Shown: piece after piece, positions 22,853-53,207 of the stretch | Numbering within the stretch: the stretch's first letter is position 1 | Layout of the letters: each line of letters opens with the position of its first letter | Assembly (NCBI GenBank): GCA_030737835.1 | Contig: CM060850.1 | Location: 2,755,788-2,819,787, forward strand | Length of the DNA stretch: 64,000 nt | Direction: 5' to 3' | Origin: Acorus gramineus | Lineage: Eukaryota; Streptophyta; Magnoliopsida; Acorales; Acoraceae | The notes under the pieces: model-generated | What the model was told of the DNA's origin: nothing | The model's database searches: none | The model's input: the letters and a program-made list of their open reading frames with translations, nothing else | Position numbers and translations under genes: made by a program

Positions 22853-22966
22853 TAGGCCTATCAATGAGTCAACCCAAATATGACCCGGACATGATAAAAA
22901 TAGTAAAATACTTGTCTTAAAAGACCCACAATGAAAATGGGTCAGGTCCATCGGTTGATAGGCCTA
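22853..22966. mobile_element. Small hAT-like MITE with TAGGCCTATC ends
   Basis: A 114-bp element begins TAGGCCTATCAATGAGTC and ends GGTTGATAGGCCTA, so the outer 12 bp are near-perfect inverted repeats. Inner words (CAACCC, GACCC, GGGTCAGG) recall the ends of the large element at 46794-53199. The flanking 8-mers do not match, so no target duplication is confirmed. Confidence 0.6.
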
Positions 22967-43380: not shown

Positions 43381-46200
<2,820 letters not shown>

Positions 46201-46260
46201 GTTATGTTTTTTTTTTTGCTTTAATGATGATGATGGGTTGAAGGGGGAGAGAACATGCAT

Positions 46261-46785: not shown

Positions 46786-46793
46786 CTTATACA
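46786..46793. repeat. 8-bp target-site duplication, left copy
   Basis: CTTATACA directly precedes the left terminal repeat TAGGCCTGTC. The identical word directly follows the right terminal repeat at 53200-53207. Confidence 0.85.
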
Positions 46794-46982
46794 TAGGCCT
46801 GTCAACAGGTCGTGGGTCGACCAGGACTCAACCCGATAAAAGACGTAACATATCCGATATGAACCCGATCCAAAGAACTCGATCCTCCAGACGGGACCCG
46901 ATCCGATCTCATAAACCCATTGAACCCGATACTATTTTAAACCTTGACAAAGAATCCTAATAATCAATCAAATAAATAAATA

Positions 46983-47073
46983 ACCCTTTCCTTTTTTATT
47001 TATATATAACCAAACCCAATTTTCCACTACGTAACACAAGTATTCCCTGTCAAAGTCAACCCAAGCTCACTGT
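46983..47073 (+). repeat. 91-bp duplicated flank of the Copia insertion, left copy
   Basis: This segment begins ACCCTTTCCTTTTTTATTT and ends AGCTCACTGT. It recurs at 52348-52438 directly outside the right LTR, with three mismatches by eye. It belongs to the hAT-type element, not to the Copia element. Confidence 0.9.
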
Positions 47074-47277
47074 CCCAACTATCTCCCCCTCACCTCTATA
47101 AACTTGTAATTCTCCACCTTTGGGATTCCTCTATGCACCCTATAAATAAAGGGGTTCTCTTTTTGTATTCAACCAAAAAAACAAATAGTGAATAAAAATC
47201 TCTCCCTACTTCTCTTCTCTATATGCTTGTGTGCTTTGTTTATATACCCTTATATATCATATTCTATTTAGTTTACA
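47074..47277 (+). repeat. Left LTR of the Copia element
   Basis: It matches the corresponding part of the right LTR, including CTATAAATAAAGGGG and the end ATTCTATTTAGTTTACA. It is shorter than the right LTR. Its inner edge leads into the primer-binding-site-like sequence. Confidence 0.88.
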
Positions 47278-47490
47278 ACACGTTATCAGCACGAGAAGCT
47301 CTTTGTTAAAGAGAAAGGTTTGTATCGATGGGTTCTTAATGATCTATATCAAAAAAAATATACTCTCCTTTGATGTTATGTATTTTTATGTAAATCATCT
47401 ACTACATGCATATGATTAAATTTTTTTTTCAATATGCATGGAACCGTATGAAAATTATCAAAATTTTTCATACATATGTTATGATATGAT

Positions 47491-47885
47491 TACATGGATC
47501 CTTGAAGAATCATGTAAAAGATATGATTAAAAATGTCCCTGAAGGACTATGATTATATTGTAAGGATCATACAAATTTTATTTTATTTTATTCCTGAAGG
47601 ACTGTACAAAAATTATGATTATATGAATCTTTGAAGGATCATGTAAAATTTTATTTTGTTCTATCCTTGAAGGACTACAAAAATTATTACATGGATCCTT
47701 GAAGAATCATGTAAAAGATATGATTAAAAATGTCCCTGAAAGGACTATGATTATATTGTAAGGATCATACAAATTTTATTTTATTTTATCCCTGAAGGAC
47801 TGTACAAAAATTATGATTATATGAATCTTTGAAGGATTATGTAAAATTTTATTTTGTTCTATCCTTGAAGGACTATACAAAAATC
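47491..47885 (+). repeat. Tandem repeats in the Copia leader
   Basis: Two units of about 197 bp beginning TACATGGATCCTTGAAGAA start at 47491 and 47688. Each is itself built from shorter motifs containing CCTTGAAGGA or CCCTGAAGGA. They lie in the leader and have no coding signal. Confidence 0.8.
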
Positions 47886-49820
47886 ATGATTGTTCGTGTC
47901 CCTGTAGGACCAAACAAAAGTTATATGATATATTTTTCAGGTCCTTGAAGGACCAAATAATAATAAAAAAAGGATCCATGTATCCCAGCAGGAACATGTA
48001 AATTATGATTAGATTTCACCACCATCATCATCATAATGAAGATGATTTAAAGATTAATACCTCATTTACAAAGGTCCACCGGCCATTATGCCTCAAATAT
48101 GCTCCAGTTGTAGCAATATTGAGAGCACCAATTTTATATATTCTCGTTGCCGAACAACGATTTTTTTAAATATCATATAACTCAACTCAATGGCATAGCA
48201 TCATTACCCGAAGTAAATGCATTTTATTTTATGTTCGCCATGGAAGTTGTGGTCATGAATGATGAGATCATGATTTATATAGTTGAGAAAGCACAACAAT
48301 CATAAAGTTTGTAAAATATCTCAAATCACTAGAAGTGATTTCCTATTAAACAAAAGCATAATTGAAGGGAAAGGGTTGCAGAACAAACCCCTAACACAAG
48401 GAAAATGATTGTTATGTATTTGGTGCTTTAAAAATATGGTCACGTACCTGATGTACGATCAGACTTTTATAATTTTTATAATTATAATTTTTCTTTGTTA
48501 TCTAAAATCCATTTTTCTTATTTTCATATTTATCTTATTTTTTGAGTTTAACATTAATTAATGCAAATGATAATATTATTTTTGGTATTATAAACTTGGT
48601 CAAAGGCTCCAGAAGGGCAGATATCATGTTATCAAGAGATACAAAATTTTGTATCAACGATGCATTGTATTCATGTAGATCCAGAAGAAGTCTACTGAAG
48701 ATACCTATCTCAACATATGCCATTTTAAAATTATGGAGTATCTATGCATTAATAATGTCTCATGCCAGAAGCATACATTAGAAAAGCTTTATGCTCTCTC
48801 CTAAGAGTTATTATAAATATCCATATTTACTCATATAAACTAGAAGTTCTATGATCTTTATGATTTGACATGACCATCTCGGATATCCATGGTACACGAT
48901 GATGCGTTGAACTATTCATTTGGGCATATACTAAAGAACTAGAAGATTCTTTTGCTCGATGATAGTTTTTACCGCATGATTTGTGGATTTCCATTTTAAT
49001 GAGACAATATTCCAGCCGTTAGGGGGAGGGAACGTACCTGAAGTACGATATGTTCCTGAAGAACAACGAGAATTATCATGGAATACATCCACTCTGTCTT
49101 ATCTAGACTCACGTACCGCTCAACGTGAAAATCAAATTCCTAATGCACGCCAGATGCGTGATAGACCTATAGGTTCAAAAAAAAAAAAATTCAGCTCCCC
49201 AGAAGTGGAGATCAAATGTAAAATCATGCTCTAATAATGCTCCAGAAGAAGTTATACATAATGTTCCAGAAGAGATTATGAACAATAGATCCACTTTCTC
49301 TAAAACTCTAGAAGAGTATAATGTCCATGAAGAGAAACGAGTTCCAGAAGTGACTACACAAACTCTTGAAGAGGAAAAGGTACCTAATAATATTAAGATC
49401 TCTATATTTTATATGCATATAAGAGAAATGTGGAATCGCAAATAAATGATCATCGATGACATATTTATCATACAAAGTAGATTCTCCTTCTATTATAAGA
49501 TATCTTGAACCATTGACAGGTGATGTTTTTACCGCTCGATTTGCGGATTGTCATTTTGATGAGACAATATTCCCGTCGTTAGGGGGAGAAAATCCGTCGC
49601 CAGAAGAACGACGTGAACTTACATGGAAAACTCCATCTTTGTCTCATCTTGATCCTCGCACTAATCAATGTGAAACTGAAGTGCAAAGAATCACTCATCT
49701 TCAAAGAATTGCGCATCAATTGCCAGATGCATTCAATGATGCAGCAAAAGTGATGAAATCACATATTCCAGCTGCTAATACTCCAGCTCGAATTAATGTT
49801 CCAATAGGAAAACTGTTAAT

Positions 49821-51791
49821 ATGCCGGCTAATGAATCAACAAAAACACGCCTGAAGCGTGGAAGACCTATAGGCTCAAAAGATTCAGCTCCCCGAAGGAG
49901 AAAAACAATGAAGAATAATTCTCTAGAAGAGTATGAAACACTTGAAAGACCCACAATAATAACTCCTACAGAGGAAGAAGTCCCTGAAGTGACACAAGTC
50001 CCTGAAGAGACTGACGTCCCTGAAGTGACGCCCGTGCATGAAGAACAAGTACATGGAAATGAAGAAATTTCCATAAATTATGCAAATTCACAAATATTGT
50101 GGGATCGAAAGCAAGTGCTTGTTGATGATATATTCTCATTTGCAGTAGCTACAGAAATCATTTCAGATAATGATTTAGAACCACGTTCAGTGGATGAATG
50201 CAGACGAAAAAATTGTTGGCCACAATGGAAAGCTGCTATTCAAACAGAATTGGATTCACTTGCAAAACACCAAGTATTTGGACCAGTAGTCCTAACCCCT
50301 GAAGGTGTTAAACCAGTAGGATGTAAATGGGTGTTTGCGAGAAAACGAAATGAAAGAAACGAGATTGTTAGATACAAAGCTCGTCTTGTGGCACAGGGTT
50401 TCCTGCAGAGACCTGGGATAGATTTTGAAGAGACATATTCTCCTGTGATGGACACAATCACATTTCGGTATTTAATTAGTCTTGTAGTCTCAGAAGGACT
50501 TGACATGCAGCTAATGGATGTGGTTACTGCATATTTATATGGAAAATTAGATACCGACATTTATATGAAAGTTCCTGAAGGACTAAAATTGCCTGAAGCA
50601 AAACCACGAAACATGTACTCAATCAAGCTAAGACGATCCTTGTATGGGTTAAAGCAATCTGGACGAATGTGGTATAACCGTCTTAGTGAGTACTTAATAA
50701 AAGAAGGATATGTCAATGATCCAATATGCCCCTGTATATTTATTAAGAAAACGGAACTCGGATTTACCATTATTGCAGTATATGTTGATGATATTAATCT
50801 AATTGGGACTCCTGAAGAGCTCGAAAAGGCTTCCGAATATCTGAAAAAGGAGTTTGAAATGAAAGATCTTGGAAAAACAAGATATTGTCTCGGCTTGCAA
50901 ATTGAGCAAAGTTCAAATGGGATACTTGTTCATCAAACAACATATGTTGAAAAAATCCTGAAGCGTTTTAATATGGACAAATGTCATCCATTAAGTACTC
51001 CAATGGTAGTAAGGTTACTTGACCCAAAGAAGGACCCTTTTCGTCCAAAAGAAGATACTGAAAATCTTCTTGGTCCTGAAGTACCATATCTTAGTGCAAT
51101 TGGTGCCTTATTATATTTGGCCCAATGCACTAGACCTGACATTGCATTTTCAGTTAATTTATTGGCCAGATTTAGCTCTGCACCAACTCGAAGGCATTGG
51201 AATGGTGTGAAGCACATTTTTCGTTATCTTCGTGGAACGTCAGACATGGGTCTATTCTATGCAAAGGATTCCAATAATGGTGCACAACTAAAGGGTTATG
51301 CAGATTCAGGATATCTTTCAGATCCTCACAAGGCTCGCTCACAAACAGGCTATGTATTCACTTGCGGTGGCACAGCAATCTCTTGGCGATCTACGAAACA
51401 GACTTTGGTCGCCACGTCTTCTAACCACTCTGAGATTCTTGCACTCCACGAAGCAAGCCGGGAATGCGTGTGGATAAGGTCTTTGGTTCATCATATTCGT
51501 ACTGCATGCGGACTATCTCTCATTACAGATGTTCCAACAACTATATATGAAGACAATGCAGCATGCATTGCTCAAATCAAAGGGGGATATATCAAGGGTG
51601 ATAGAACAAAGCATATTTCTCCAAAATTCTTTTACACTCATGAGCTCCAGCAGAGACATGAAATTGATGTTCAACAAATTCAGTCAAAGGACAATCTTGC
51701 AGATTTGTTTACTAAAGCTTTGTCGACATCAACATTCAAGAAGCTGGTGTATGAAATCGGGATGCGACGAGTTTGCGACCAAAATTCTTGA
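49821..51791 (+). CDS. Copia reverse transcriptase and RNase H frame (fossil element)
   Basis: A 656-codon frame covers the C-terminal part of a Copia polyprotein. Reverse-transcriptase landmarks are NCWPQWKAAIQTELDSL, GCKWVFARKR, RYKARLVAQGF, MDVVTAYLYGKL, RRSLYGLKQSGRMWY and YVDDINLIG (the YVDD catalytic box). RNase H landmarks are GYADSGYLSDP, GTAISWRSTKQTLVATSS, YEDNAACIAQIKGG and RTKHISPKFF. It is the only long intact stretch of the element, and it has no role in the host that I can see. Confidence 0.92.
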   Translation: MPANESTKTRLKRGRPIGSKDSAPRRRKTMKNNSLEEYETLERPTIITPTEEEVPEVTQVPEETDVPEVTPVHEEQVHGNEEISINYANSQILWDRKQVLVDDIFSFAVATEIISDNDLEPRSVDECRRKNCWPQWKAAIQTELDSLAKHQVFGPVVLTPEGVKPVGCKWVFARKRNERNEIVRYKARLVAQGFLQRPGIDFEETYSPVMDTITFRYLISLVVSEGLDMQLMDVVTAYLYGKLDTDIYMKVPEGLKLPEAKPRNMYSIKLRRSLYGLKQSGRMWYNRLSEYLIKEGYVNDPICPCIFIKKTELGFTIIAVYVDDINLIGTPEELEKASEYLKKEFEMKDLGKTRYCLGLQIEQSSNGILVHQTTYVEKILKRFNMDKCHPLSTPMVVRLLDPKKDPFRPKEDTENLLGPEVPYLSAIGALLYLAQCTRPDIAFSVNLLARFSSAPTRRHWNGVKHIFRYLRGTSDMGLFYAKDSNNGAQLKGYADSGYLSDPHKARSQTGYVFTCGGTAISWRSTKQTLVATSSNHSEILALHEASRECVWIRSLVHHIRTACGLSLITDVPTTIYEDNAACIAQIKGGYIKGDRTKHISPKFFYTHELQQRHEIDVQQIQSKDNLADLFTKALSTSTFKKLVYEIGMRRVCDQNS

Positions 51792-52041
51792 AATCTTGTA
51801 CTTATGAGGGGGAGTAATTTTTATGACATTTTGCGAACTGTACTCTTTTTCCTTCGCCTAGGTTTTGTCCCATTGGGTTTTCCTGGCAAGGTTTTAATGA
51901 GGCAGTGTCAAACGCATACACTATTATACGATTAAGTTACATTGTACTCTTTTTCCTTCGCTTTGGTTTTTTCCCATTGGGTTTTCCAAGCAAGGTTTTA
52001 ATGAGGCAATTTTCTTAGCGTGGTGGTCATCCAAGGGGGAG

Positions 52042-52345
52042 TGTTGTGAATATGGTGGATAACCACCACTTCTCTAACCCATAACCTCCCCCACTCTTCA
52101 ACTCCATAACCTCCCCACTCTTCTATTCCATAACACTCCCATTATTGTCCCACTATCTCCCCCTCACCTCTATAACTTGTAATCTCCACCTTTGGGATTC
52201 CTCTATGCACCCTATAAATAAAGGGGTTCTCTTTTTGTATTGAACCAACAAAATAGTGAATAACAATCTCTCTCTACTTCTCTTCTCTATATGCTTGTGT
52301 GCTTTGTTTATATACTCTTATATATCATATTCTATTTAGTTTACA
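52042..52345 (+). repeat. Right LTR of the Copia element
   Basis: Begins TGTTGTGAATATGG after a purine tract and ends GTTTACA, with CTATAAATAAAGGGG as a likely promoter box. It is immediately followed by CC and the right 91-bp repeat. Confidence 0.9.
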
Positions 52346-52347
52346 CC

Positions 52348-52438
52348 ACCCTTTCCTTTTTTATTTATATATAACCCAACCCAATTTTCCACTACGTAAC
52401 ACAAGTATTCACTATCAAAGTCAACCCAAGCTCACTGT
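52348..52438 (+). repeat. 91-bp duplicated flank of the Copia insertion, right copy
   Basis: It is the partner of 46983-47073 and continues into the right arm of the hAT-type element (ATAAACAACC). Confidence 0.9.
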
Positions 52439-52602
52439 ATAAACAACCATTTAACCCAACCACTCAAAAAAAATATTTTGTTTTTCTTTTTTTTTTAAAT
52501 GTAGACAGGGAGGGGGGCGTTAATGGGTGTGGTACATTCAGTAGAGAGTAGCATTTAATTCTTTCCCTCTCTTTTCCCCTCTGCAAGCAAAATTCACACG
52601 GG

Positions 52603-53103
52603 GTGTCTCTTATCAAAATCGGGAGGAGATCCGGGTGTGAGTGTGTAATAGTTGTGTTGATATTTTATTTGTTCGTTTCACTCTTATGTTCATCTTCTTT
52701 GAATATGGTCGGAGTAAAAGAGGGGAATGGGAAGAACTCTGTGTCATATAAAGAGGGACTGAAGAGGGGGCCGTGGACGACTGAAGAAGACAAAATCCTC
52801 GTCGACTTCATCAACAAAAATGGCCATGGCAGCTGGAGGTCTATTCCTAAACAAGGAGGAGGAGGAGGAGGTCTCATCAAGCTCTGGCAGCCCGAGGAGA
52901 ACCTCGACTCCCTAAAGCGCGAGGTCTTCCACCTATGTTCGGCCTTCCTCACCGTCCACCTGACCCTCCTCTTCACCTTCTCCCACCGCAAGATCTTTGC
53001 CCGCGGCCTCTCCCCGGACTCCATCTCCGACGACGCTGTGTATACCTGGGTCAACCCGGACCCGACCCGGGTCCGCCGGGTCCGGACCCGGATTCTCATT
53101 TGA
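52603..53103 (+). pseudogene. Chimeric frame inside the hAT-type element: MYB R2 fragment plus second segment
   Basis: A frame of 166 codons with an internal ATG at 52705 contains LKRGPWTTEEDKILVDFINK followed by NGHGSWRSIPKQ, the first part of an R2R3-MYB DNA-binding repeat. This is roughly what exon 1 of such genes encodes. After a six-glycine run the frame joins LIKLWQPEENLDSLKREVFH and a hydrophobic stretch that ends near LLFTFSHRK. That second segment recalls plant membrane proteins of unknown function, but I cannot name the family. The frame then runs into the GGGTC-rich subterminal repeats of the transposon and stops. The MYB domain is incomplete, so DNA-binding is unlikely. Most likely it is captured gene sequence; whether it is transcribed is unknown. 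Confidence 0.7.
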
Positions 53104-53199
53104 CTGGGTCCACCGGGTCTCACCGAGGACCCGGGTCCGATAGACCCAAGTCCGGGTGGGGATCCCGACCGATCAGAACTCAACCCGTAGACAGGCCTA

Positions 53200-53207
53200 C
53201 TTATACA
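53200..53207. repeat. 8-bp target-site duplication, right copy
   Basis: CTTATACA, identical to 46786-46793, directly follows the right end AGACAGGCCTA. Confidence 0.85.

Follow-up and report, generated by a model that had tools for sequence, protein, structure and literature searches.

Fragments of three host genes in a probable Pack-hAT element of Acorus gramineus with a nested Copia retroelement

Background

How do pieces of three host genes come to lie side by side, in one open reading frame, between the ends of a DNA transposon? The question is raised by a locus of Acorus gramineus at positions 46786-53207 of a 64-kb piece of contig C4; this whole stretch is called the window below, and all searches for related sequences were made in the 399-Mb genome. 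A preliminary description, made from the letters of the window, had proposed a hAT-type transposon that captured a MYB fragment and later received a retroelement. We consider a non-autonomous Pack-hAT element, whose interior derives from three host genes and which was later hit by a Copia element, the best explanation of the whole, with a probability of roughly 0.9.

Ends and interior of the element

The features of the element are the following:

46786-46793, no strand: left target-site duplication CTTATACA, read directly from the sequence
46794-46803, plus strand: left terminal inverted repeat TAGGCCTGTC, from the sequence and the family counts
46794-46983, plus strand: left terminal part of the hAT element, from the alignment with the left part of sister copies
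52538-52859, plus strand: first captured segment, from an R2R3-MYB gene on C7, comprising its upstream region and exon 1, with the N-terminal part of the R2 repeat
52705-53103, plus strand: open frame of 132 codons and a stop, which traverses the three captured segments and keeps the native frame of each
52876-52982, plus strand: second captured segment, from a gene on C6 that is predicted to encode a membrane protein
52979-53034, plus strand: third captured segment, from an RRM gene on C2, matching at 94.6% over 56 bp
53035-53199, plus strand: right terminal module, rich in ACCCGG/GGGTC repeats and common to membrane-gene, RRM and three-gene relatives
53190-53199, minus strand: right terminal inverted repeat TAGGCCTGTC, read from the sequence
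53200-53207, no strand: right target-site duplication CTTATACA, read from the sequence

The inverted ends lie at 46794 and 53199, as previously described, and the 10-base end TAGGCCTGTC is perfect at both termini; further inward, the ends are merely similar (83% over 23 nt, a stretch that takes in part of the duplication). The flanking copies of CTTATACA agree in 8/8 bases across the element 46794-53199, i.e. the 8-bp duplication is indeed perfect. If the Copia insert and the 90-bp duplication that accompanies it are subtracted, 1041 bp of element remain, which agrees with the proposal of a non-autonomous hAT-type element of about 1 kb. The left 200 bp contain 2 and the right 200 bp 11 occurrences of GGGTC or GACCC, compared with a window-wide mean of 0.22 per 200 bp: The subterminal repeats are genuine, and far stronger at the right end.

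For mapping the capture, positions 52439-53199 and their two peptide parts were searched against the genome, and the donors were then aligned. The MYB fragment matched PF00249 with an E-value of 1.3e-8; when the chimera frame was searched against Pfam, MYB domains were found, besides two weak matches that missed their cut-offs, and no transposase was among them, so that the expectation of a MYB fragment in place of a transposase held. Open frames that reach 110 aa in the hAT part are limited to this chimera frame, one antisense to it and one overlapping it; the element thus has no transposase of its own. Aligning the interior with the MYB genes of the same genome, as had been suggested, identified the donor locus C7:18085726-18086153. 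Over 176 bp, made up of exon 1 and the 42 bp that precede its ATG, the identity to this gene is 89%, and the match runs on into non-coding upstream sequence (442 aligned bases at 78% for sister copy L013); a MYB paralogue on C11 matches over the exon plus one 60-64-bp upstream piece only. The C7 gene continues with the remaining R2 and R3 in later sequence. In the window as well as in its sisters, the captured MYB part ends within a few bases of the likely boundary of exon 1 and intron 1 (L014 1675-1676).

The proposed capture of host sequence was thus borne out, but not for MYB alone, which is one of three captured genes. The second donor lies at C6:15582446-15582600 and has a 302-aa open frame, for which a membrane protein is predicted from its hydrophobic stretch. 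The third lies at C2:11602211-11602294 (RRM_1, E 8.5e-28); the first 4 bases of the RRM segment are shared with the membrane segment. At the donor loci (L014, L030, L035), no paired ends were found within the 3 kb read, and the larger gene structure is present. The interior therefore derives from host genes that exist elsewhere without the ends, as is expected for a Pack-TYPE element. The MYB piece might conceivably have been copied from spliced RNA.

Membership in the hAT superfamily

A search for other copies with the same ends, which had been recommended, revealed an abundant family. The 10-base end TAGGCCTGTC occurs 1201+1202 times (reversed pattern: 156+150) and the 18-base end GACCCGTTGACAGGCCTA 694+642 times, compared with 0+0 occurrences of its reversed control. 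The first 8 listed end sites, representing 7 distinct places, were read over 3 kb, and at most 2 mismatches were permitted per partner end. A partner end and a perfect 8-bp duplication were found at 4 of the 7 places (L002, L003, L006 and L007, the last being the same as L008) and delimit elements of 861-1145 bp; for L001, L004 and L005, no partner end with duplication was found in the 3 kb read. Within the window, a 114-bp sequence at 22853-22966 has TAGGCCTATC inverted ends and lacks an 8-bp duplication; it is probably a tiny relative of the TAGGCCTGTC family.

Transposases were sought with the PF05699 profile: 150 of 554 candidates were scored and 1.0-1.2 kb downstream were inspected for 35 of the 150; for 3 of these 35, picked on their GGGTC content, 200 bp more were taken. 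At four of the 35 sampled sites (C63, C4, C5, C10), the exact family terminus lies about 1 kb beyond the hAT dimerisation domain. Near-form ends were seen at four further sites (L103, L106, L107, L077), namely TAAGCCTGTC three times and TAAGCCTGTT once. Matches with 2 mismatches at six sites (L082, L088, L094, L095, L102, L109) were put down to chance or to another family, and the other 21 sites showed nothing end-like within the stretch read.

The decisive case is C63:401520-405677, a 4158-bp element with TAGGCCTGTC family ends and the duplication GTTAGGAG (8/8), which contains a BED zinc finger (PF02892), the hAT RNase-H fold (PF14372) and the hAT dimerisation domain (PF05699). As L086 diverges before the C63 end, this end might have belonged to a neighbouring insertion; the idea was dropped because the ends at C4, C5 and C10 match and the left end of C63 with its target-site duplication was found. 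Membership in the hAT superfamily, as proposed in the preliminary description, is therefore well supported: A relative with the same ends encodes a predicted hAT transposase, the terminal inverted repeats are short, and 8-bp duplications occur at the window, at the 4 of 7 first-listed places, at C63 and at the sister copy on C8.

Pack-MULEs and Helitrons are the best-known gene-capturing elements of plants, and Pack-MULEs resemble the present element in being non-autonomous and in carrying fused gene fragments. They belong, however, to another superfamily with 9-bp duplications and mostly longer terminal inverted repeats. The duplications found here are 8 bp long, the TAGGCCTGTC ends are short, and the transposase between the same ends has hAT and not MULE domains, which makes a Pack-MULE or a Helitron extremely improbable. 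A literature search for the word TAGGCCTGTC gave no report of a transposon by titles and abstract starts.

Sister copies and single-gene relatives

The chimera exists at six places, which go back to five insertions, the window included. The initial count was seven places; however, an insertion divides a single copy into the two places C8:17844 and C8:17858, and C2:8984 and C2:9295 represent one duplicated insertion. The sister at C32:10651203-10652386 comprises 1184 bp and has the same gene order and junctions and a duplication of 7/8 bases; the sister at C7:2402.5-2404.1 kb likewise has the same order and junctions. On C8, the left end is at 17859545 and the right end at 17844701, the duplication CCCATGAT is perfect (8/8), and the copy is split by a nested insertion of about 13.6 kb, which is of LTR (long terminal repeat) type and flanked by CCACC. 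The copy at C2:8984 kb has the three genes with the same MYB/membrane and membrane/RRM junctions. All three genes are also present at C2:9295 kb, where the MYB exon and its junction are lost and the right flank is shared with C2:8984. The flanks of the window, C32, C7, C8 and C2 copies are mutually unrelated. In the MYB part, the four sisters which cover the exon share changes, among them a stop, that are absent in the window; judged by these shared changes, the window copy is probably the earliest branch.

Relatives with only one of the genes exist as well. The element L028 at C2:23353 kb comprises 1017 bp, has the duplication GGTATAGT (8/8) and matches the membrane gene but neither the MYB nor the RRM donor; the first 77 bp of the left terminal part of the window copy align with it, and interiors at C10 and C9 are 92-93% identical to it. 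Another relative of this kind lies on C66, and RRM-only relatives were found at C10 and C77. The right terminal module is common to the window and to the membrane-only and RRM-only relatives. No left ends were found for the elements at C10:3290, C77 and C66 in the 3 kb read.

Two side observations concern these relatives. In the RRM relative L017 (C77:332836-333004 and upstream), a frame upstream of the RRM part resembles the start of a papain-type protease, gave no Pfam hit and is perhaps a further captured gene. A 9-bp deletion in the membrane part of the window copy is also present in the C66 element (L036) but absent from the sisters of the window copy, which may reflect either a recurrent deletion between repeats or an exchange between elements.

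Junctions and assembly of the chimera

The window and its sisters share the MYB/membrane and membrane/RRM junctions. At the latter, TCTC is common to both donors at the switch point. At the former, the filler GGAGGAGG is the reverse complement of CCTCCTCCT, which lies beside the captured membrane segment. At the membrane/terminus junction, the sequence is CACCCGGGCAGACCC in the donor and ACCCGGGTTGACCC in the terminal module; the C66 relative switches from the membrane gene to the terminus on ACCCGGG, a word present in both the donor gene and the subterminal repeats. Since the RRM-to-terminus junction of the RRM-only relatives is recognisable in the three-gene elements, an RRM element probably served as the base of the chimera.

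A different route is offered by the Pack-TYPE proposal of Gisby and Catoni (2022), according to which adjacent insertions fuse and are re-mobilised as one. Section 9 of that article (PMC8903248) describes AB and BB elements and a two-gene acquisition in steps, and the existence of relatives with just the membrane or just the RRM piece would fit such a course. Fusion would, however, leave a terminal repeat between the gene pieces unless it was deleted, and none was seen at the MYB/membrane or the membrane/RRM junction. We therefore regard fusion as a serious but unlikely alternative.

The preferred course of events is as follows. The element would have been mobilised in trans by the BED/hAT transposase; the element that encodes this enzyme has ends of the form TAGGCCTGTCAACGGG, and the sharing of ends was observed directly. 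Between fixed terminal modules, the interior was put together from parts of the three host genes. As the junctions suggest, the most likely route is microhomology-guided template switching in the course of repair within the element, with exchange between family members. The finished three-gene chimera then reached the six places, which go back to five insertions. Copia entered the window copy later, and this event left a 5' LTR that is truncated and 90 bp of hAT sequence in duplicate. A more far-reaching idea is that the GGGTC/ACCCGG repeats act as recombination hooks: GC-rich exons bearing ACCCGGG would be drawn in by template switching and interiors exchanged, which would yield combinatorial in-frame multi-gene chimeras, occasionally downstream of an LTR promoter. 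This idea is speculative, and we consider it rather improbable.

Several observations weigh against the overall interpretation. The Pfam search of the C6 membrane gene gave no hit. The microhomologies were judged by eye without a null model, and the relative at C2:23353 kb has an altered ACCCGGG at its membrane/terminus junction. Among the sisters, the copy at C7:2402.5-2404.1 kb lacks a clean pair of ends, the flanks of the C2 copy agree in just 5/8 bases, and the two C2 places are one insertion, segmentally duplicated with its flank. A left end, with up to 1 mismatch allowed, was not found within 4 kb upstream of the C4 transposase; hence a complete element is present at just one of the two transposase sites examined upstream. 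Finally, no empty site, which is expected to read CCTCCTTATACAAGTC, was found with the joined flanks as query in the plant's own genome, to which this comparison was confined: Only the present locus matched, besides three short partial matches of 79-81%, all to one end of the query.

Reading frame through the chimera

The frame begins with the ATG at 52705, ends with the stop at 53103, and comprises the MYB, membrane and RRM parts in that order. Could the window copy be a young chimeric gene, whose frame is kept by selection and which is possibly transcribed from the 3' LTR of Copia upstream in the same orientation? Its 132 codons are open through three genes in their native frames; the insertions and deletions relative to the donors or the sister L010 are 36, 9 and 3 bases long, each length being divisible by three; the stop carried by the four exon-covering sisters is missing in the window. 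Moreover, the pooled ratio of replacement to silent substitution rates (dN/dS) of the window frame against the donors is 0.19, and 10 replacement changes compare with a mean of 16.7 in neutral simulations (P 0.002). However, the selection reading was dropped because this pooled ratio also carries the donors' own constrained evolution. If the changes are polarised by the sisters and the paralogue, which was done for the MYB part (the membrane and RRM parts were aligned and not counted), 3 replacement and 2 silent changes are specific to the window, which is near neutral. The polarised MYB changes thus give no sign of purifying selection on the chimeric frame. In addition, 48% of the neutral simulations with the observed number of changes stay stop-free, and the start codon of the frame is new: The MYB gene's own start codon was thrown out of frame by a 1-nt deletion, and an upstream ATG is in frame instead. 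A selected young gene is thus very improbable; most likely, the frame is a leftover of the in-frame joining of coding exons.

The nested Copia insertion and the neighbourhood

The later arrival of a retroelement, which had also been proposed, was confirmed. Its features are:

46984-47073, plus strand: 90-bp hAT piece, first copy
47071-52348, plus strand: nested Copia-type LTR retroelement, from the sequence, the LTR comparison and PF07727
49821-51791, plus strand: 656-aa open frame with reverse transcriptase PF07727, from a profile search
52042-52348, plus strand: 3' LTR (TGTTGTGAA...CACCA), bounds read by eye
52349-52438, plus strand: 90-bp hAT piece, second copy

The reverse transcriptase matched PF07727 with an E-value of 2.9e-61, and the sister L010 aligns on both sides of the Copia site with no Copia between. 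About 104 bp are missing from the start of the 5' LTR, the first three bases of Copia (TGT) are shared with the hAT piece at this truncated side, and the 90-bp duplicates differ at 3 of 90 positions. The usual target duplication of such insertions is 4-6 bp, far below 90 bp. The simplest reading is an unusual integration, in which one Copia end would have been joined normally and the other by end-joining. The LTR pair has 6 substitutions over 202 aligned positions, with 8 gap positions; at a rate of 1.3e-8 substitutions per site and year, the insertion would be about 1.2 million years old. A related Copia LTR (about 91% over 246 bp) is also present in the sister L012 (C2:8984 kb), where it occupies another position in the chimera.

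Peroxidase-like exons were found on the minus strand of the window at 43381-46260. The match to PF00141 has an E-value of 1e-22 for 43381-43827 and of 2.1e-5, under the curated cut-off, for 45766-46257. As these exons begin about 530 bp from the hAT element, the element sits in the upstream region of a peroxidase-like gene.

Relation to known systems

The capture of genes is better documented for MULEs and Helitrons than for hAT elements. The kind of element is already described, and the present one is a well-resolved new case. In the part of their article considered here, Gisby and Catoni (2022, PMC8903248) name and count Pack-hAT elements of maize and rice among the Pack-TYPE elements; the stepwise acquisition of two gene pieces is shown there for a PIF family, and similar events are stated for hAT. 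Those elements are alike in being non-autonomous, in having hAT ends, 8-bp duplications and host coding fragments, and in forming multicopy clusters by stepwise acquisition. Compared with the text of that article considered here, the present case differs in having three donors and one frame open across all of them, a TAGGCCTGTC family with its own transposase-bearing member, and junctions without visible internal terminal repeats. Of the animal Pack-TIRs, 208/370 are hAT elements (PMC8277862). As far as the sections of that article drawn on here go, they share with the present element the host fragments between inverted ends, short microhomology at breakpoints and multicopy spread, and gap-filling and FoSTeST models would apply to both; the plant host, the three-gene chimera and the GGGTC-rich subterminal repeats as likely switch points are different. 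No further Pack-hAT study was found by title and abstract start in a search that left subscription papers mostly outside.

The value of this case is that a single genome contains the donors, the relatives with one gene, independent copies of the chimera and an element that carries a transposase, which is why the order of assembly and the role of the subterminal repeats as switch points are directly testable. The element is a rich example of a known route by which plants shuffle gene parts.

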